Positions 19,185-46,477 of a stretch of DNA of 46,477 bases are shown in pieces (positions within the stretch are counted from its first letter, which is position 1; each line of letters begins with the position of its first letter). Under the pieces are notes generated by a model that ran no database searches, was not told the origin of the DNA, and worked only from the letters and a program-made list of their open reading frames with translations. The stretch covers positions 598,451-644,927 of the forward strand of contig WELB01000068.1 in the NCBI GenBank assembly GCA_009602725.1, given 5' to 3'. The stretch comes from Spirogloea muscicola. Lineage: Eukaryota > Streptophyta > Zygnematophyceae > Spirogloeales > Spirogloeaceae. The position numbers and the translations under genes are program-made.

Positions 19185-22100
19185 TCAGAGTTCAGCCGCA
19201 GAAACATTAGCGGCCTCCCACAGTGGGGATGTACTGACAGGATCAGAAGCAGTTGTTGCTCCACTTACGCAAGCAGCAGCATCAGCTGCGTCAATTCCAG
19301 CCAGAGTAGTATCCCAAAAGACGTCTACGTCCATGCTACGAGCCACTTGACAATTTGGTGCTTTCCCACTTTGTTGCCAAATGTCACACACGGTCTGCCC
19401 TGCGCTCAGCTGCGGAGACAAGACAAGGCTGTCACAGGCTGTCACAGAGCACTATTTGCATGCAGGAAGCACATAAGCATAGGGCTCTGTGCAGTATCTT
19501 GCTAAAGATACTGCTGATGGCTACGTGCATAGCACTGGTTGGCAGTAGTCCATGATCAATATTGCAAACAGCTCATCATATAATAAATGCATGTAGTACC
19601 TCACTTGTTGTCTCCACATCCACACGCAGGTGCTGAGTCTGGAAGAGAGAGCAAACCAAGAGATGCCTGCCTGAGTTCAAGAGAATTCATTCGGCCAACA
19701 GCTTTACCTCACAAAAGTGAAAGGCAGAGCACAATTACCTTGAAGATTTGAGGAGCGATCACAAATACCACTGCACAAGGATCATGGAGTGGTGGAAATT
19801 TACAGCCAAAGACAGCCTTGTATGTCTCTGTGAAGAAGAGTAGTAGATCTGCTACTGCACACAGGCCGGGTTGCACGACATTGCTCAACTGAGGTTGCAG
19901 AGTCCTTGCACAGCTTGCGAGGATCTTCTACAAACAAACGGCTTTATAAAATGCAATGGCTTGGAGATCAAGGGTGTAGGAGTAGTGCTATGAGGTCGAT
20001 CCCAGATGCTCTTAGGAGATGCTCAGTGCCATACCAAGCCTCCTGAAGTGCGTTGGCTTCCGCGTCAAAACTCGCTCTAGGATCTCTGAGGTAACAAGTG
20101 CGGTGTGTGTGACCTGCAGCAGAAGTTTTCTCACTGCGCGTTAAGTTTTTCATGGTGCACTGCAGGCTGAGGGAGTGCAGTAGCTGCAGTGAGGAAAAAA
20201 CACAGATCGGCTGAGGAGTCTGCTCAAGGCTACCAAGATACGAGGGACCCATGTCTTCTACGCGTCTATGTGAAATAGACATTCTCAGCATTAAGAACGT
20301 CCACTTGGGGATAGCAGCAGCGTCGATGAATAGAAAGCATCCTTGGGCAGAGTAGCAGTCAGGCACTAGCATGCTCAAGCAGAGAAGTCATAAAGACCTC
20401 CAGGGGGATCATAGTCACTGGAGCTTGAGACTGCAGTACCATCTTCGCAGCCTCCGGATCACACTGCACACATTATGCAGGTGTATGCTTCTTTGAGGAC
20501 CACAGCATGCGTGCTTCGAGACAAGTGTGCAGAGCATGAGCCACCTCGATTAAGTACCCTTGCAGAGCTTGTGCAGGGCATCACGAGATACATGCAGGCA
20601 GCGTCAGCCTCCTCTGCAAAAGCATGGTAAATCACGCTGCACAGAAGCCAATTGCTGACCTGGATATTGAACTCCATGACTGGCCCTGCAGGTGGAAAGC
20701 ACCGAACACTATTCTTAGCCTCACGTGATTTGCATGCACCTAACTTCCTTTTAGTCATGATGGACCTGCAGTCGTGAGCTGTGGTCATGGGGTTTTTCTC
20801 AAGGCCTTGACCAGTCATCTCAGGCCTGCTTTGCCGCTCTGGTTGCAAGCTTGCTATCTGGATGACAGACGAGGCCAAAAGCGGCGGGTTGCCATTTGAC
20901 CACCTCACCCGTATTTCCAAGGCCTAGACATCCACCTGTATCGGATAAGGTTGTCAATCAGCCTTGCAAACATGACCTTCTTCTTGCAGGCTGCTTAGGA
21001 TTTCAGGCCCGCTTGACATTCACCACATCTCGAGAAAGTATGAAGACAGCGAGCATGACAGGACGCAGGAGCAAGCCCCATGGATGTCCTGTTGCCCAAG
21101 TCTTGTGACTGCGGCAACACTGAGGAGAATGAGAAGTACAGTGCGCCACTACGTGCTCACCCATAAGTACAATCTGCCGCAGTCAGTGGTCGTCATGGCC
21201 ATGTAGTCAAACCATCGCAAAGTCAGGTGACATCCGAAGCCAGAGCTGGGCTGTGTTCTGCTAACATTCTTAATTACCCTGCGCTCCTCACAGTACTAAT
21301 AACAGAGACAGGATTGCTAGGATGATCGAAGGATGCTGGGTGGCAGAGCCACAGAACATGTTATACAGGGCCTCCAGAGTCGGGAAACAGCAGGCACCTC
21401 AATGCATGATGCTACCTCTGGGTAGAGGGCAAGAAGCATTGCAGCATTGGTAAGGGCGCCTGTACAGACGAGAGCAACTCTCTGCCTGGTCTTTCGTGCC
21501 TCCTCACTTGAGAAAGCCAGAGAGCAAGAGCATGTGAAGAATTTGCTGAGCTATTACTCAATGTATGAAACCTGTGAAGCCTTGGCGACTCAAACCTGCA
21601 GTGCATTGTGATCACTGTATGCACAGCAGCAGTACAGAGGGCGCACCAGGCACTGAAGGCCGACATGATTGCATTGGCCATGACGGTGACGGCCTTCCCT
21701 TCCACGGGCTGGTGCGGAGAAGGCAGGATGGTTGGGCCGTCGAGCCCTGAATTGCCATGGATCTCAGGGCAAGACCGTCGAGGGCGCAGCAAGGGCTGCG
21801 CCTGGCCCTGCACCACACCTGCCGACCGGGATGCGGATGGGAGCAAGCGCAGCTTCAATGAACACAGAGAAGACCAACTCCTGTCACAGGCTGGGTGGCG
21901 TGGGCGAGAAAGAATGCGGCCGCTGATATTACGAGAGCGGCTGTAAAAGCCAGCCAGGTGCATACAGAGGGTGTTCATGACTATGTGAGCGGAGCCAGAG
22001 GCTAGGCAATGAGGGTGCTCTTCGCACCCTCGTATCAGCAATAGGAAGTCAGATAAGCTGAGGGGAGGAATGGAAATCCAAAGAGCAACCCATAGTAACC

Positions 22101-22531
22101 CAAGAGGGAGAGGTTGCAGAGCGTGGAGGCCGACGCACCCACGTCGCCTCTGCCGCAGAGGTGGAGCACCTTGAGTGCGTTGGCAGTCACCCGGGCCACC
22201 TGTGCCAACAGAGCGTGCGCGACTGAGCAGTGACGGAATCGATGGCAGCCTGGCCCCAGCCGGATGAAGTGAGGGGCCCGCGGGAGGCGGAGGAGCCTTT
22301 TGCTCACGTCCTGGTTGCCGTGCACGGTGCTGACGCCGAGGAGCCTCAAAGCGGGGCTGTGAGCGGCCAGGAGGATGGCGATGGCGTCGTCGTGCCCTGC
22401 GAGGAGCAGGTTGACGATCACCAGAGGCACGCACGGGTAGAGGAGAGAGGGGGGGGCCATGGCCCAGCCTTCACTGTGGCCGCACCAGGGTCGCAGTCCA
22501 GCCAGAGGGGCCGCGGCTGGGTGGTGGCCAT
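19185..22531 (-). CDS. Inosine/uridine-preferring nucleoside N-ribohydrolase
   Basis: These enzymes hydrolyse ribonucleosides to base and ribose in salvage, using a Ca2+-binding aspartate cluster. Supported minus-strand exons are 22486-22531, 22308-22396, 22139-22199, 21647-21818, 21416-21485, 21161-21173 (13 nt), 20660-20685, 20398-20463, 19739-19927, 19600-19638 and 19185-19409. Exon 1-2 give LDCDPGHDDAIAILLAAHSP, the catalytic DxDxxxDD signature at residues 12-19. Later blocks are VSTVHGNQD, CPEIHGNSGLDGP, VALVCTGALTNAAML, IVLMG, PVMEFNIQCDPEAAK, PPLHDPCAVVFVI, TQHLRVDVETTSE and VARSMDVDVFWD. Two stretches remain unresolved: around 21415-20690 (the loop before PVMEFNI) and 20397-19930 (after MIPLEV). 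The gene may be intact with extra small exons, or slightly damaged. It is flanked on both sides by LINE family-2 copies in opposite orientations. Confidence 0.85.
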
Positions 22532-28939: not shown

Positions 28940-30943
28940 GTGGTTCGGTACAGTGTAGCCGGACTGTGTGCACTTCCTTGCCTCATGCATGACTGGTGTA
29001 CTGGCTCGTCTTGGCCTCCCTTTCACGGCATGCTGCGGCCCGCGCGCCTTCTCTCTCCTTGGCGGCACTGTAACAGTAGTGCCTATGCCCGGCTTTCCCC
29101 CACCACGCGCTAGGTCGCGGCCGCCGCCGCCGCCGCCCCTCCAACCCCCCGGACCACTGCCGGCGTCGCCGCCGGCGGCGCCCGCCATGGGGTCCGCGGC
29201 GACCGGGCCAGCCGCCTTCGCCGCCGTCGCCAGCGCCGCTCTGCTCCCCGCCGCCCCACCCGCGCGCCCTCGGCGCCGCCCGCGGAGCCGCAGTCCCGAG
29301 TACCCCCCGTCCAAGGTCGCTTGGGCGCAGCGGCTCCTCCTCCGCGCCGCCCTCGACGCCGTCACCACGCCACCTCCGCCGCAGCCCCCCCCGCCTTTCC
29401 CCCTCCCCTCGCCATCGCCCCCATCAGCGCCCCCCCCATCTCTTCCGCCGCCGTCACCCCCGCCTGCGGAGCTCGCACGCGTGCTGTGCCCAACTTGTCC
29501 GCGGGATTTCGCATCTCGCCGCAGTGTCTCATTGCACCGGAAATACTGCAAGGGGCATGCCAGCCCCACCGGCACGCCGCCCGCAGCGGCCGTCGCGGCT
29601 TGCAGCCCCATCGCCCCGGCCCTGGCATCTACTCAGGCGGAGCATACCACGGAGCACACCACGGACGCCATCACTCTATCGCCTCCCGCCCGAGAGAAGC
29701 GTCGGGCGCCTGCGTTATCGCCTCCACCCCTGAGATGCGAGGGGACCCACGAGGTGACCACGCTCCTCCATCCTCAGGGTACCATGCCCCATGTGCTCGG
29801 CCCTGACGTCCCTGAGTGTGCTTCTCCGGCGACAGAGGTGCCTCAGCCGCCACCACCCGCCGAGCCGTCGCCACCACTGCCGCCGGCGTCCCCACCGCCC
29901 CCATCTCCCCCAACGCCGCCTTCCCAACCATCCGCCATCCCGCCTCTCGAACCGCCCAGCCTTCCGCAGTCGGCGCCATCGACGCCGCCCCCGTCACCGC
30001 CGCCTCCAACCCCGCCGAGCGAGCCGGCTTCAACGCCGTCGCCTCCCCCCCTCCCTCGCCCGAACCACTGCTGTGCCAGCACTGCCAGAGGACCTTCACC
30101 TCGCGGTCCGGCCGGGCCAACCACGAGCGAGCCTGCACGTGCAGTAACAACCGTGCGGCACAGGCCCGGAGCGCAGCGGCAGCGGGTGGTCGTCGGGGCA
30201 GACCAGGCAGGCCTCCCGCGCCGTCCCCGCCCACGCCCCATCAGTGGCAGTGGCTGGCTGGCCTCGACCTGGCCGCAGTCCACCGCCAGGCAGCTCTGCC
30301 GCTCCTCCGCCACGTTCCGCGCTGGGTGCGCTCGCACCTCCGCTGCGCGCTCCGCCAGGCAGCGGATCGTCGCGGACCACCGGGACGAGGCGGCGTGGAA
30401 GTTATTTCTCCTCTTCCCTCGGCTGCTGCTCGGGCGTGCCTCTCCCAACAGCAGCAAGCAGGGCCAGCAGCCCCTGCTGGAGCGCGTCCAGTTGTTCGAG
30501 AGCGGGCACTGGGAGGAGCTTCTGGCGCGTCATGACGCCGCCGTGGCAGCCTCTGCGTGCTATCGTGGTGGCACAGGGGCAGCGCCCGACAGGGCCGCCA
30601 GCGTCCGCCGGGCACTTCGCTTCGGCCACGCGGGTAAGCAGGGCTGTGCAGGCCCTCGACGATGCGATGCTGGCGCCGACCAATGCGGCGACTCGGGCGG
30701 CCCTGGACTCCCTGCACCCCCCGGCGAGCTCCCCCTTGCCACCGTGGTTGGCCGCCTTCGCACCGCCAGAGGAGGTGGTCTTGGATGCCAACGCCCTCAA
30801 AAAGGCTCTGCAGACCAGCCGTCGCGCAGCCGCCGGCGGCCCCTCCCGCATGCTTACTGAGCCCCTGCGGGAGATCTTCCTCGAGGGAGAGGCTGCGGAC
30901 TTCAACACGCTGATGCAGATCTGCCAGCATCTGGCCCAGGACA

Positions 30944-31885
30944 ATGTCCGGCCAGCATCGTGGCGTACTGTGCACCAGCACGCTGCTCGCCCCCGACAAG
31001 CCGAGCGGGGGAGTCAGGCCCATTGCCATTAGGGAGGTCCTCTACCGCCTGGTGAGCCGCGTTCTCTGGCAGCAGCATGCGGGGCCGGCGCAGGTGCACC
31101 TTGCGCCACATCAATACGGTGCGGGGCTGGGGAGTGGGGGCGAGGCCGTGGTTTACGGGGTCCGTGCAACCTTGGACCAACACCCGGGGTGGCTGGTACT
31201 GGCCGTCGACGTTAAAAATGCCATGGAGCGCGCCTGCATTGCGGAGGAGCTCCGGGCCACCTTCCCCTCCCTGGTACCCCTTTTCCGCTTGGGTTACGGT
31301 CAGCCCAGCGACCTCCTCTGGAGGACAGGGGGTAACCAAGTGGAGGTCCTGCAGTCCCAAGCGGGCACGCGGCAAGGGGACCCCCTCGCCGGCTTCTTCT
31401 TTGCGCTCGCTCACCACCAGGCTCTGCAGGCTACCGCGGCGGCACATCCAGGGGTCCTACTGCCCACCTTCGCTGACGACACCACCATGGTCGGCCCTCC
31501 GGAAGACGTGGCGGCGGCCTTCGTCACCTTCGAGCGGCAGCTGGCCACCCTCGGCCTGTCCACCCGGGCGTCGAAGTGCGCGGCTTGGTCCCCCTGCGGC
31601 CTCCCATCCACCCTGGCGCTGCCCCCCGGATGCCTGACTCCTGCAGACGGATTCACCCTCCTGGGGGCCCCCATTGGTGGGCCGTCCTTCGTGGAGGGGC
31701 AGCTGCGAGCCCGCCTCGAGGAGCACCTCCAGCCTGCGGCCCGGCTCCCCAAGCTGCAGGATATGCAGCTGGCTCTGGCCATGTTGACCAAGGCCATTGC
31801 GCAGAGACCCCAGTATCTGGCGCGGGCCACCCCGCCGTCACCAGGGCGCTGGCGGCGTACGCGGGTTTCAACGCAGGCATGGTGA
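30944..31885 (+). pseudogene. Reverse transcriptase segment of the LINE
   Basis: This is the longest uninterrupted piece of the element's polymerase. Motifs in order are PSGGVRPIAIREVLYR (RT block 2), LVLAVDVKNAMER (block A with its aspartate), SQAGTRQGDPLAGFFFALAH (block B) and LPTFADDTTMV (block C, the FADD catalytic pair). It opens without a natural start and leaves the true frame near 31.8 kb, where coding continues in another frame (LAAYAGFNAGMVTSVAALVR). It is part of the transposon, not a host gene. Confidence 0.85.
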
Positions 31886-35217: not shown

Positions 35218-36397
35218 TCAAAGAGCACCTAGGCCGCCCGAGTTGGTCTTAGGCTTGGGCTTGGGCGAGTGGCAGACGGGTTTAGGGTCCCCCAATTTGG
35301 CAAGCAAAGCTCTTTTGGCCACAAAGTAAATGCTCTGATGCAGCACTGCTCCTGAGAAAGTCACTGCTGTTGAAAGTGACGAGGTTACTCGGCTAGTCAT
35401 GTGTTAACAGCAGCACCGTTTTCGTCAACAACGTGAACCTTATCTCACGACAAGACTCTGGCTGGTCGGTCCAAGTCTGACGACTCCAGTGATTGACAAT
35501 GTGCTCTGAAGAAACCTCACAGCAACCCGCCTCATTCTTCTCTATACAGCAATCCTTTGACTTGTTGTCGTGAGGAGTTAAATAATAGGACACTTCCCGA
35601 GGGGATCATGGTTGGATCGACCTAGTCGAGCAGCAACCATGCTGGTCAAGTCAGAGGGACCTCTTTGCTCTCTCCAGCAACACCTCCTGGAGGAAATCGT
35701 AGTGCAACACCATTTGCCCGTCACACAAGGAGCCGCAGTTGCCTGGCCAGCTGCATCTTGCCCACTTGGGATCTGCAACTTGAGCATCACAAGCATGCTC
35801 GGGAGAGGAGTCACCTTCTTTCCGACTGAAGATAGTCCCTTTTCCCTTAGCAGCGCCTTCAGCTTTTCTACCGTGTAGTCATGGAGGTCCGTTTCAGTCG
35901 TCTTCCTTGCAGAACTTCCTCCAACAGTTTCTGCATTTGCTGCAAGAGCCAGTGGTACTGTACTTGCCGCGGTCGAGGCAAAGCTCTTCCCAGGCTTCCT
36001 CAGAAGCCTGGTGTGGTGCTCAAGCGCGCTAAAGCAGTGGACGAGCAGGCATAAGCCGCCAAGCGAACAAGAAGTCACTGCTTGCAGGCCACCTTGTTTC
36101 CTGAGGAGCTTCAAAGGGTTGCAAGGCACTAAAGCAAGGGAGGGGACAAGGAAACAATACCTCTACGGAGGCCCTTGTTGGACGCGGTGCGCTTGACTGG
36201 CGGCTGCTCCCCGTCCGAATGGCTGGAAGGGGGGGACGACGGCTCACGGCCGGTAGCGTCAGGTGGTAGCCGGCCCAAGAGTCCGGTCGTGGGTCAGAGG
36301 CAGCCAACGGCTCGGGTGCAACGCAAAGCGCGTGCGTGCGCGTGCCCGAAGGTCGAGCTGATAAACGAGTGACAGATAGCGGAGGACCTCGAAGCAT
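35218..36397 (-). CDS. SAP-domain protein, probably organelle-targeted
   Basis: A SAP motif is clear on the minus strand: LHDYTVEKLKALLREKGL then SSVGKK (about 35815-35890). SAP domains are ~35-residue helix-extended-helix DNA/RNA-binding modules. My model starts at 36397 with an Arg/Ser/Pro-rich leader (MLRGPPLSVTRLSARPSGTR) like a transit peptide, spliced after RASVE (donor GTATTG near 36163) to KPGKSFASTAAS at about 36002. After SSVGKK the intron donor is GTGACT. The last exon is probably that ending in KPKPKTNSGGLGAL and TGA at 35218, with VAKRALLAKLGD completing the second SAP helix. Only the SAP exon is firm. The 5' end lies 19 bases from the stop of the DDA1-like gene on the same strand. 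Confidence 0.5.
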
Positions 36398-37681: not shown

Positions 37682-40600
37682 CTAAAGGCGCGTGCAGGAG
37701 AGGTCAAAGTCGTCCGGCGCGAGCCGAGCTAGCCACGCCGCCAGCAATCGCTTGGTCGCGCCGCTGTCCGCACTCGCCAGCTCGTACATGGAGCACAGGT
37801 CCAGTATGAGCGTCTCCTCCAATGACACTAGCGGGTTGCGCTGCAGAGCGCCCTCCAGCACGCTGATCGCACCCAGCAGGTCCCGCCCGTACATCAAGCA
37901 CAGCGCCTGACCAGCACACAACACATGGGGCCACAAAACTCACTGTCAGCCCACCAGGCCCGCTGTGCTGCCTAGCGCTCCAGAGGGTACGGGCCTGTCA
38001 CTCGATCTGAATACGACGGGAGGTCTTGTTCAGCTGCTTCTGTTCGCTCTACGCCCTGCCAGCGATAACAACCACCCCCGTCCATGTGCGCCTCTGACTT
38101 CCAGCCTCTCATACATTGCACAGGATGGACCTGCTGCAAGGAAGACAAAGAGGAGCAGTACATTGTCATCACCTTGTTATTGACAGCCACAACATTGTCG
38201 GGGTCCATCTTTAGAGCCGCATCGAGCTCCACAAGCGCTGCTGAGTACTGCTTGGTGGCAAAGTGCAGAAGGCCGCGGTTCAGGTGGACTAGTGCCTCGG
38301 TTGGGCCGGCACTCTGCTCCAACTCCATGAACGTAGCCTTGGCGCCCTCCAGGTCGCCCATCTGCAGCTGGACATACCCGTACTTTGCCTGCAGCAGAGC
38401 TAAATTGTTAGAGGTTGTCGCTCACCTTCAAATCATGGCAAGGCTCTGCCAACAAGTCACACCCAGAGCTTCCTAGCTAAAAGCAAGCTATTCTTTGGGG
38501 CCACGGTGCCTGTTTAGGTTTAAAGCGGCTCCTGTCACAGGATCAGCTTGTGGAGTTGACCTGGATGACGGGGTCACCAGGATGCTGCTCGACCAAGCTG
38601 CCCAACCACTGAAGCGCAACAAGGAATTCTCGCTGAGCCAAGTGGTGATTGAGAACAGAGAAGATCACAATCTCCTGTCGCTTGTGCCACTTCTTCAGAG
38701 CTGGCATGCAACATCCAGAAGTCTGCCACTTTGTCAATGAAAGAAAGGAGGGAAGCACTGAGTGGATACACAGGCTGCAGTGAGTTTTCAACCACTTAGC
38801 TATACTTCAGACTTCAGGCTGTGCAGAAAGCCCACTGGTATGCACGAACCTCTGCCTTCTAGGGATGGGAACAATGTTGACGATCTCCTCGCAAATCCAT
38901 CATCAGCCTCATCTGGACTGGCATGTTTCACATCCTCCGGCAAGTCCCTATGTCCTCGACTGACTGCTTCTTCATGGGCTCCCATTGTGAAGTGAGCAGC
39001 ATCACTCGCTATCGGTAAGGAGGTTGCAGGTGACATCTTTGCGTCCTCCTCAATATGCATACCTGCAGCTTCTCTTGCAAGAGCAGAAGTATCCAAAGTG
39101 CCACTGGCTGGCGGAGAGGTCACAGGTGCTCCCTGCAGGATCTGCTGCGCAGATTGTTGCCTGCAAACAGGCCAGCAGCATGGAGAGAAACCTGTGAGTA
39201 GTCCAGCACGAGGTGCGAATTGAGTCAAACACCTGAAGCACAGCATGCCCTGAAAGCTGTCAAGCAGCCTCTTGCACTGCAGCAAGCTGGATTACTAGTC
39301 AGGAGAGAGGCTAAGCAAGTGTTGAGAGCCCTACACAATGTTTACATCAGCTGATGTTGCTGCAGCAATGGCAGGGAGTCTGAGCTTGCCCTTCTCAGCA
39401 GCACTTAGCTCATCAAGCTGCGGGTGCATTTCTGCCACAAATCAATGACATTGGGACAACACCAGAAAGAGGGGCCCCTTGGTAGAGGCATCATCTGCCC
39501 TTTGATGGCATTGTAGCAGTCCCACATTACAAGCGAGGGACACCTTGAGCAGGACAACCTCCTGTGCTTACAATTCTCACCTTTGCATTGCAATGCGCCA
39601 GGAGTGCATACAATCGGTCTATGGTGGTGGCCGTTTGTCCTAGTCTGTGCGGTAGCTCCGCATGAAGCAATCTCAGAGCGAAGGGGACCATGGAGCCTGC
39701 ACTGTTGAGAGTCAGAGGCATGAGCCAGTTGCCCACCGCCCCAGGACGAAGGGTGATTGTTGACCTGCTCTGATCCCAACCAAGTCAATCTGTTCCTGAT
39801 CACCACACTCACGGACACTGTTGTGCGATGTCTGAGGTCTCAGCAATCTCTTCACATGCCGAATATCAGGGCGGGCAAGCAAGACAGCGGCTGCAGAGCA
39901 GCCGCACAGTACCTTGCTTGGTCGGATAAGAACTGGGCCAGGATTCGTAGCTGTATTTGGTGCTGCCCAAGTCGCCTTGCGCTTGGAGCTCGTCAGCTGC
40001 TGCCCCATACATGCGCAGCTTCACAAGCGCAAGGACATGATATGCCGAGTACACCAGCTGCTCATGAGGGGGCTGCCAATGTATGATGGAAGACAACAGA
40101 TGACAATTTGCACGTACGTCAAGCGATGTCGGGGGTACAGGCGGTGCTTGACAGCAAGAGAATACTAGAACAATGTCAACCTTCTCCAAAGCGCAAAGGA
40201 GCTGGTGACTGTAGAGGAGCTGAAGCCTGTTCAATAGGAAAAATCCGTGTGTTGAGTGATGGAAGGCCAGAGCTGCCAAGAAATAAGGCAGCAGAGGAGA
40301 TCACAAAGCGAACCTGCAAATTTGGCCCTGTCGTTTTCCCTTCCTTGACCTTCTCAACAATGGCTCGCCAGGAGCCTTGCTCCTGTCATAGATAGAGAAG
40401 CAACCCCAGTACGAGACTTCAGACCGTGTTTACAGTATTGACCAAGGGAGAATCGGACTCTGACTATATTGGAGCTTCTTGGGGATGCATTGACTGGCAA
40501 AGACGCGTATGTATTACGTTTCCAGGTCTGGCAAAGATTATGGATGCAATGACCCTGGCAGCATGGGTGGTCAGGGTAGTGGCCCTACTGCGAGCGTTTG

Positions 40601-43376: not shown

Positions 43377-46300
43377 TTAAGGGAGCACTCGGCAAGCTCT
43401 CTGCATGTGTGAGGAGCAACGCGGCAGTGTGGCAGCTCGCATCTGTCGCTGACATATGAACCTGTGCTCGTCACAGAGCAGATACGGGTAGGTCGTGGCT
43501 AAAATGCAGCACGCTCCTGCCAAGGAGATAATCCATGGCGGTGTTGCCTTGCTGGAAGTAGCTAGATTCAGGCTGCACAGTCCAGGCCACAGCAGCATCA
43601 GCACTTTGGACCACTCCAAGGGCACCATGCTTCTGCTGACAGACGCCGATCGCAAGGCGGGATGGCTTACTGAGAGTCGGCGCTGCTGTCGAAGCAAGAC
43701 CACCCAGCAGGCGGCAAGGGCTAGGAACACCCAGATCTTGGACAGCAATGGTCGTGGCTGCAGGTGCAACCAGGCCAGGAGCTTCGACATGCGCTTGGTC
43801 CGGCGACCAGGCAAGCCCGATCCAGAACGCATCATGAGGAATATGGCAATGGCAGCAGTGACGAGTCCCGAGAGCAGGACAACATCGAAAGTGACGCCGT
43901 AGCCTGGTTGGATGAACACTGTCGTTCCCTCTGGCGATGGCAAAGGTACTTTGAGGTCAGCCGGTCGAAGAAGAGCCCAAGTTGCACAGGCCCACTCCAT
44001 GCATGTTGCAGTCAAGAACGCAAAGCTGGCTCCCATCCAAGTCTGAAGAATAGAACAAGCAGCGTCGCAGATCTCAGCTCCACAATGGGAACACGCAGAT
44101 TGGCCCGCTTCCTTCTGGCCAACATGACACCAACGCCATTCATGCCTTGGGCAAATGGATGTGGTTACCAAGCTACGCCGCCGACTGAGCCGCAGATCTG
44201 CAGCCTCGGGTGTCGTGACACTGCCTCCGCTCGCTTCGCCTGTCGCTGAGAGCATGAAGAAGAGCCCGGCAACTCCCCAGAGAGCAAATGCAAGCCACAG
44301 GAGGATGCGCGTGAAGTAGCCGGCAAGGCGGTACTGCCTGTGAAGACGAAAATAAGTAGGACCAGCAATCAGCATTCACATCTTCAGAAGCACGATCGAC
44401 TGCGCTTGCCGACAAGGCAGCAGGAGCGTAAGGATGCAGTCGACCTGGGCCTCAGTTTGCGCGACAAGAACTCTGCCTTCTGCAGCCAGGGAGGGGTCAG
44501 GACAGGGACTGCGAGCTGCATTGTCGCCCGAATGAACAAGAAACTCAAACGAACTCCAAGACTGACCTGCCCCAGCGAATTCGCTCCTGATCAAAGACAA
44601 GGTATTCAGCAAGCTCTGAGATTGGCAAGGGCACTCCTTGCACGATGCGCTCCCTGTACTGCCTGTTGTATAAGCCAGAGTACTTGCCGTGACCATTCCG
44701 CCCCTGCAATCCCCCAGGACAAGGGAGAAGCTCACATGGTGGCCACACTGGCTTGCTTCAGGCTGGAACGAGCCCAGCTCGTCGAGCTGTGTGGACGTCT
44801 CCAACAGACCCGCTGCTGACGCTATGCCCCAAGGAGCACTAACGCCGCGGTCAAGGTACCTCGCGCAATTCTGCTGTTGCCTCGGACTATCGCATCAGCT
44901 GCCAGACCAATCGCTCAGGCTGCCCACCTGCCCTCCAAGCCAGCTGTAGTGCTCGTTGAAGACAATGTTGCCTTCCTGTTGGTGAGTGGGCTCCCCAGTC
45001 AGCGTGTAGTTGACCCCCCGCAGCCCCACGTTCATGCCCATGGTGCAGTTTGTGAGCTCCTTGGCGAAGGGGTGCAGCAGGACTTGGACTCTGGCGGAGT
45101 CTGCACGACAGCAAGGTGTAGGTACGGTCAGCACGCATGGCACCCTTCACATGTGCACATTGGAAGTCGAAACAAACGACATGGAGATGACAAGGGCGTG
45201 GACAGTGGACTACACATACCTCATGCATCTAGGGTCAGCAATGCTGCATCTGACCTTAAGTCATGGGGCATCTCTAGCGAGCCCCGCGCTTCATGCAGAC
45301 ACAGCCTGGCCACTTGATAAAGAGCTATCTGCACAAGGATGTTGGGCAAGGCCGGCAGAGGGTGGCCAGGTGCGATGCTCCTTGGAGGAGCTGCTCACCA
45401 TGGTCCCACGTATACGACCACTGAGATGCAACAAGCAAAGCGGCGATGTACAGGTAGTACGTCACAGCGAGGGGGGCGAGAGCAAAGCGAAGCTTTTCTG
45501 TGCGTCGCAATCTCCTGAGCTGGTACTGGTCTGCACACGATGAACAAGGAGGCATGAAGCGTCGGCCGACCGGGCCGCCACAGGCTCACCCGAAAGTGGC
45601 AGGCTCAATAGCCCCCCTCGGCGCGTAGACGAGTAGCGCAACCAGGCGGCGGTGAGTCGCATGTCCTGGCTGCTGAAGGATTGAACTCGTCGTGCCACCC
45701 CAACCACTCACCGGGGTGGAGGGTGTCAACAGTTGCCGCAGTTGGCGGCTTGCGGCCCCTCACGTACAGGAAGAGCAGGGGCCACAGGCTCACAAGTACA
45801 CAGCCAAAGGCGTACCCAATGCCTGCACATCGCAGAGCGAGCGCCGCAGCCATGCGACAATGTCACGGCGATGACAGGTGTGCGGCTCCCATTCGACCTC
45901 GCCTGACCCCTGCTTGTGCAAGCGCGTGCGGAGACGGCTGCAGAGCCGGTCGTGCGGCGACCGGGGAGCAGCCTCCGTGGAGCGCGGATGTCGATGGCAG
46001 TCACAATGCACGGCCGCTGGTAGAGGGGTGACGGAGGGGGCAGCGTGCCTGCAAGCTTGACGTCGGCGCGCCAGTCCGTCCAGTGCGTCCCGAAGTTGGC
46101 GGGCTGGCGGTCGTAGTTCGCGAGGCCGAGGTAGGTGATGAGGCCGATGACGCCGCCGGCCACGACGAGCAGCACCAGGAACTGAGCGCACTTGCTCTTC
46201 TGCTAGGCCAGGCCGCTCGCTGCCGGGTCAGCTTGCCCTCGCCTTGGTGGAGCGGAAGGTAGCGCTGCAGCTCGGGGCAGCGCGCGCGCTCGACGGGTGC

Positions 46301-46444
46301 GGTCGTGGCGGCGGAAGGGGGGGGGGGGGGGGGCACCAAGTGTCTGCGGGCGAGGGGCAGGTTGTCGGGGTCGAGGATGGGCGCGCTGGCGGCGGCGGCG
46401 GCGTCGTCGGCCGTGGTCCGGAGCTTCATGCTGCTGCGCCGCAT
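43377..46444 (-). CDS. DUOXA-like (dual oxidase maturation factor) multi-pass membrane protein
   Basis: In animals DUOXA is an ER membrane protein required for folding and delivery of dual oxidases. Minus-strand exons with consistent phases include 45712-45822, one ending at 45399, 44928-45100, 44567-44703 and one starting at 44337; a further one starts at 44042. Translation gives a first membrane helix (LVVAGGVIGLITYLGLANYD), YAFGCVLVSLWPLLFLYVRG, then an extracellular-type loop GVNYTLTGEPTHQQEGNIVF then NEHYSWLGG. Animal DUOXA has the same block, N-x-T-x-TGTPVHQLN...YNEQFTW. Next are RQYRLAGYFTRILLWLAFAL and, C-terminally, FIQPGYGVTFDVVLLSGLVT. The first exon shows a frame problem near 46205-46333, next to a 17-base G run, perhaps a sequence error. 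The intron after KLAG starts GC. The C-terminal end and the exon ending near 44170 are uncertain. Confidence 0.8.
46317..46333. repeat. Poly-G run of 17 bases
   Basis: A homopolymer inside the first coding exon of the DUOXA-like gene; on the coding strand it reads as a Pro stretch. Its length decides the frame of the N-terminus, so an assembly error here is likely to matter. Confidence 0.9.
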
Positions 46445-46477
46445 CTGCGGGCGGGCGGCGCGGCGCGCGGCGGCGTC

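Follow-up and report, generated by a model that had tools for sequence, protein, structure and literature searches.

Dual oxidases (DUOX) and their maturation factors (DUOXA) are known as an animal system, associated with thyroid hormone and mucosal defence. Among human bidirectional gene pairs with a spacing below 1 kb, both DUOX/DUOXA pairs appear in a list of the ten best conserved (PMC2871058). In the cryo-EM structure of the human complex, the glycan on DUOXA1 N109 makes extensive polar contacts to both DUOXA1 and DUOX1 (PMC7794343; human DUOX residue numbering and roles are taken from the same source throughout). The land-plant NADPH oxidases, the RBOHs, lack a peroxidase domain and carry an NADPH_Ox domain with EF-hands on the cytosolic side (PMC3591440); they are not known to need DUOXA. 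In an earlier classification, land plants contained only RBOHs and chlorophytes only unclassified NOX-like sequences, while DUOX formed a metazoan clade (PMC9421330); that set included 14 streptophyte and two chlorophyte sequences and equated streptophytes with land plants. In the open-access literature searched (titles and the starts of abstracts), we found neither DUOX nor DUOXA reported from plants or green algae; automated database entries may exist.

Here, we describe a DUOXA gene from the alga Spirogloea muscicola and the DUOX-type oxidase gene found head-to-head with it at three loci. With a constrained pair of this kind present in an alga so close to the base of land plants, the history inferred for enzymes producing reactive oxygen species (ROS) would need revision. 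It makes two questions testable: whether the partnership is older than animals, and what DUOXA does in the absence of a thyroid or gut.

A DuoxA-Family Gene in the Window

The stretch analyzed, hereafter the window, is 46,477 nucleotides long and carries on its minus strand a gene of nine exons (46444..43471) whose spliced model encodes a membrane protein of 503 amino acids. This model has seven GT-AG introns and one GC-AG intron, with identical splice dinucleotides in both other copies of the locus.

All exons are on the minus strand. The predicted ATG start codon, at 46444, opens exon 1 (46337..46444), which has no PDB or Pfam coverage and of which 28 codons fall within an N gap in the copy on contig C300. 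Exon 2 (46049..46199) encodes an extra N-terminal hydrophobic segment, with a hydropathy peak at residues 44-62, and ends in a GC donor. The GC-AG intron that follows, intron 2 (window 46048-46049 region), has this donor in all three copies. Further hydrophobic segments are predicted from exon 3 (45712..45822; residues 87-105) and exon 4 (45399..45530; residues 139-157), and the PDB and Pfam matches start within the latter, at residue 144. The extracellular loop is divided between exon 5 (44928..45100), which contains NCT and NYTLTG sequons and gives the genome's best match to the Pfam DuoxA profile (PF10204), and exon 6 (44567..44703), which is supported by the spliced model and the PDB match. 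Exon 7 (44169..44337) encodes RQYRLAGYF followed by a helix and has a PF10204 match at C68:642700-642804 (C68 being the contig of the window). The C-terminal helices are encoded by exon 8 (43671..44042; hydrophobic segments at residues 379-397 and 426-444), whose frame is kept in the three copies. Exon 9 (43471..43629) ends in a TGA stop, and its frame and stop are likewise common to the three copies, the tail being without homology support.

The gene is a genuine member of the DuoxA family. Its product matches PF10204 with an E value of 1.4e-39 and 136.3 bits, against a cut-off of 23.3, and the only PDB matches at E <= 1 are human DUOXA1 (7d3e_B, 1.2e-17) and mouse DUOXA1 (6wxr_B, 7.5e-16). 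Identity to human DUOXA1 is 34.5% (50 of 145 aligned residues). The NYTLTGEPTHQ, FNEHYSW, and RQYRLAGYF blocks are all in frame in the spliced protein, and the Asn of NYTLTG aligns with human N109, the sequon being retained as NYT; this concerns the sequon only, as we have no glycosylation data. Besides the profile match, the NxTLTG sequon at the position of human N109, the loop, and the RQYRLAG helix start, the gene shares with DUOXA1 and DUOXA2 its DUOX neighbor. Unlike those proteins, it carries additional hydrophobic segments at both termini and, unlike human DUOXA1, it does not keep the sequons at positions 84 and 121. Its 503 residues compare with 483 in the human chain 7d3e_B and 341 in the mouse chain. 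PDB searches gave no match to solved structures past approximately residue 300. Scans of viral contigs (2 stretches) and genome contigs (17 stretches) returned no DUOXA relatives, but such a single-protein query reaches close relatives only.

An earlier note, made without database searches, had proposed a DUOXA homologue at 43377-46444, sharing with the animal proteins a glycosylation-type loop, a Y/F-N-E block, an L-A-G helix start, and the order of helices. The homology and the three sequence blocks held. The end of the gene did not: position 43377 is where one unspliced open frame stops, whereas the spliced model has a short last exon ending at 43471. The hydropathy profile picks out six segments, including additional ones at either end of the protein; of the five transmembrane (TM) helices of the family, the fourth falls below threshold. 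Two of the checks that the note named, a match to a DuoxA profile and the presence of the NYTLTG block in the spliced frame, came out positive, the latter in a predicted model without transcript data.

A DUOX-Type Oxidase Adjoins DUOXA at Three Loci

We performed profile searches of the genome from which the window comes (153 Mb in 471 contigs; the resulting lists score best candidates only). The six matches to PF10204 fall at three loci, on C68, C300, and C314, with exon-level matches over the cut-off. All 14 matches to An_peroxidase (PF03098) are at the same three loci, and NAD_binding_6 (PF08030) has three matches, one for each. Together with PF08022 and PF01794, these profiles each match beside DUOXA on all three contigs. 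At every DUOXA locus found (3/3), the oxidase adjoins DUOXA on the opposite strand in a head-to-head, divergent arrangement.

The earlier note had suggested searching the same genome for a NOX, DUOX, or peroxidase-NOX protein and had raised the alternatives that algae keep a DUOX-like oxidase partner or that the family has an older, different role. With a DUOX-type oxidase head-to-head with DUOXA at three loci, this alga therefore keeps a DUOX partner, and the first alternative is borne out for this genome; an older origin remains possible. The partner was invisible from the window because it sits past the window end and an N gap. Only the start of the intergenic region (46445..46477) lies inside the window, and the divergent DUOX gene is outside it, on the plus strand at C68:648587-656521. 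This segment contains exons 8-29, exons 1-7 falling in the N gap at C68:644928-648458.

The intergenic region contains an N gap in all three copies, of 3,531 (C68), 1,953 (C300), and 1,753 (C314) bases. On C314, the two genes are 1,984 bases apart, 1,753 of them N, and the true gap size is uncertain. The divergent, adjacent genes resemble the human bidirectional pairs (PMC2871058), but the algal spacing is up to about 2 kb (C314, N gap included), whereas the human genes overlap or lie 135 bp apart. The intergenic N gap of C314 is bordered by a long run of A.

The three 20-kb locus regions are 87.9-92.6% identical in blocks longer than 2 kb, and a few short blocks are lower. Between copies, dS for DUOX is 0.094-0.130 and dN/dS 0.09-0.125 over 1562-1732 codons. 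For all exons of DUOXA, dS is 0.090-0.131 and dN/dS 0.20-0.24, the latter being 0.15-0.21 for exons 3-9. By these ratios, all three copies of both genes look constrained, as under purifying selection, and no internal stop is found in their readable parts.

An Oxidase Departing from Animal DUOX

The DUOX model was derived from the three-copy alignment, with anchor peptides and conserved splice sites replacing an automatic splice modelling that gave discordant 5' ends, and was built on C314, where it comprises 29 exons (83612-93874), 28 GT-AG introns, and 1805 amino acids. A start codon could not be assigned because its position is in or beyond the N gap. Projected onto the other copies, the model has no internal stop and equal exon lengths except for exon 25 of C300, which is three bases shorter. 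Owing to N gaps, C68 lacks exons 1-7 and C300 lacks exon 1 apart from 7 bases.

The adjacent gene encodes a DUOX-type oxidase. The protein begins with a signal-like N-terminus and a peroxidase-homology domain; a TM segment and the regulatory region then lead to a NOX core that retains the heme ligands, followed by an FAD/NADPH domain. PF01794, PF08022, and PF08030 all score over their cut-offs in the draft model. The peroxidase region aligns with residues 28-609 of human DUOX1 (415.7 bits, E = 3e-123), the next peroxidase, 8s6c, scoring 236 bits; NCBIfam gave no match for this part of the protein. The NOX region alone scores 281.6 bits with mouse DUOX1 and 279.9 with human DUOX1, and 159 and 150.7 with NOX5 and NOX2. 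In the alignment rows copied for counting, 38.5% of the residues in the peroxidase rows (150/390) and 33.3% in part of the NOX core (66/198) are identical to human DUOX1. In human numbering, the heme-ligating His 1130, 1144, 1225, and 1238 and the oxygen-site residues R1087 and H1148 are kept, as are both cysteines of the disulfide tying the peroxidase domain to the membrane domain (C118 and C1165). The oxidase thus resembles animal DUOX1 and DUOX2 from its N-terminus to its FAD/NADPH domain, with a full peroxidase-homology domain, the disulfide cysteines, and a DUOXA neighbor.

The regulatory region is different. Unlike animal DUOX1 and DUOX2, the algal oxidase has no detected canonical EF-hand loop: a PROSITE-style loop pattern has no hit in any of the three forward frames at the three loci, with introns left in, although an intron-split loop would escape such a scan; the positive control worked. 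There is no EF-hand Pfam match in the regulatory region at E <= 10, and sequence comparison of this region with DUOX1 detected no similarity, including to the pleckstrin-homology-like domain. Structure prediction for the EF-hand-equivalent exon, as a single exon, gave a pLDDT of 43.9. Because the EF-hand criterion fails in these searches, we class the oxidase as a variant of the DUOX type and not as a standard DUOX. On sequence evidence, the oxidase is a new, EF-less variant partnered by a DUOXA belonging to the known family, with the reservation that an intron-split EF loop is not excluded. With such a variant, assembly that depends on DUOXA could be studied apart from control by calcium.

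The stretch preceding the NOX core resembles ubiquitin, a feature that also sets it apart from animal DUOX1 and DUOX2. The Pfam match is weak (0.00069) and below the cut-off (19.8 vs. 25.4 bits). In the PDB, single ubiquitin chains match at about 0.0015 at best; the far lower values in that list belong to polyubiquitin repeats. For the truncated exon, AlphaFold returned a long helix and no ubiquitin fold (75.5 for the best model, 46-59 for the remaining four), but the input lacked the expected first strand, which is encoded partly in the exon before. For this reason, we regard a ubiquitin-like insert just before the NOX core as probable but not shown.

The peroxidase domain also differs from that of human DUOX1. 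The proximal heme His of true peroxidases is present (RFGHTLV), where human DUOX1 has Ser331, and the domain may conceivably bind heme, an inference from sequence. Nevertheless, the distal His is replaced (FGQQVVEEI vs. WGQFLDHDL in 8s6c), leaving peroxidase activity doubtful. Among the other residues compared, T170, W172, D174, T332, R395, and D397 are kept, while the tetramer-interface residues R50 and R507, D1128 of the FAD site, and D109 and S176 of the cation site are changed.

The Host Genome and the Origin of the Pair

The earlier note had called the genome green-algal in type. The genome search listed 68 matches to light-harvesting complex (LHC) genes; the presence of nuclear LHC genes supports this description. 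For one Lhcb, assembled by eye from two open frames, the scores are 438 bits with 8htu, 402 with 6kac, and 381 with 8bd3, which we take to be from a moss, Chlamydomonas, and Chlorella, respectively; the top two rows of this PDB list, multi-repeat LHCI chains of 9vfj, were set aside. GRAS gave 92 matches, many in evident trios; the genome of S. muscicola is described as triplicated (PMC7994812, PMC9065682). Within green plants, GRAS genes are known from Zygnematophyceae and land plants. The LHCII and GRAS evidence together points to the host being, in all likelihood, a photosynthetic streptophyte alga apparently near land plants. PF00016 gave no match and no plastid RbcL was found in the assembly, which we do not read as absence of photosynthesis.

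A different explanation for the loci is contamination, that is, contigs from an animal or protist in the algal culture. In its favor, outside this genome DUOX and DUOXA are known chiefly in animals (PMC9421330), and no LHC or GRAS match is found on C68, C300, or C314. Against it, contig C68 is 677 kb long, and the genome has three copies of the locus. Other genes also come in threes, including several GRAS trios and the FAD_binding_8 genes on C197, C355, and C271. One Lhcb copy pair is 83-93% identical at the DNA level, near the 88-93% of the DUOX region, and the algal DUOXA is only 34.5% identical to the human protein. We consider contamination very unlikely.

Horizontal transfer is harder to dismiss and remains a possibility: the algal lineage would have acquired the genes as a linked pair, with an animal or a protist as donor, before the genome tripling. 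The divergent arrangement is as in human (PMC2871058), a linked pair could move together, and the genes are not known in other green plants. On the other hand, the divergence is deep (the counted rows are 33-39% identical to human DUOX1), the regulatory region is different, and the gene has 29 exons. None of these points excludes an old transfer.

A Putative DUOX-DUOXA Enzyme

We think it likely that DUOXA works with the adjacent head-to-head oxidase as a DUOX-DUOXA enzyme; without expression, interaction, or activity data, complex formation, product, and mode of control are all inferences. Such an enzyme would reside at the plasma membrane or in the secretory pathway, and electrons would pass from cytosolic NADPH via FAD and two hemes to oxygen outside the cell. 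The glycosylated loop of DUOXA may support the peroxidase domain within the complex, and DUOXA may help in the export of the oxidase, its DUOX binding and maturation role being inferred from gene neighborhood only. The predicted product is extracellular H2O2. Control would not occur via direct calcium binding to EF-hands, and the probable ubiquitin-like insert may contribute. The most likely use would be extracellular H2O2 for wall or mucilage chemistry and stress signaling, the role of RBOH in land plants.

The rival view is that no working DUOX complex exists, with DUOXA having another client or role and the oxidase acting alone like RBOH. The extra hydrophobic segments at both ends of DUOXA and the lack of conservation at the human DUOX tetramer interface speak for it. 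Against it, the genes are adjacent, divergent, and kept in three copies, and the N109 sequon and the cysteines of the peroxidase-to-membrane disulfide are retained. We find this view unlikely and prefer the joint DUOX-DUOXA enzyme.

The comparison with RBOH has limits. The algal oxidase shares with the land-plant enzymes a NOX core and, by inference, extracellular ROS in the green lineage; unlike them, it has a peroxidase domain and no NADPH_Ox (PF08414) among its Pfam matches. No RBOH was seen in the genome, but as the PF08414 search was silent for the controls too, and as genes can escape searches run exon by exon, this does not establish absence. A bolder reading is that the divergent DUOX-DUOXA pair is a eukaryotic module predating the plant-animal split. 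Land plants would have lost it in favor of RBOH, while this alga would have kept it, with the oxidase as its main or only NOX-type enzyme and with EF-hands exchanged for a regulatory insert resembling ubiquitin. Taken as one joint claim, this is no more than possible, and the choice between transfer and ancient inheritance is unresolved.

Other Genes in the Genome and the Window

FAD_binding_8 gave six matches in the genome, the DUOX trio and one other trio, on C197, C355, and C271. This second FAD_binding_8/Ferric_reduct trio was read only for its C355 copy, which we take to be a plant FRO ferric reductase by motif. A further Ferric_reduct-like gene is found at C207:155500-158999, with a weak Pfam Ferric_reduct match in one frame (0.0026, below the cut-off). 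By eye, we take it to resemble a STEAP/YedZ-type reductase; STEAP has been placed in Metazoa (PMC3591440).

Elsewhere in the window, two open frames on the minus strand have matches below the cut-off, to IU_nuc_hydro (21415-22470; 9.9e-7) and SAP (35581-36162; 0.00087), and a third, at 37975-38421 on the same strand, has a TPR match over it (TPR_2, 8.4e-7). On the plus strand, a reverse transcriptase domain at 30914-31882 (RVT_1, 8.3e-14, over the cut-off) indicates a retroelement.
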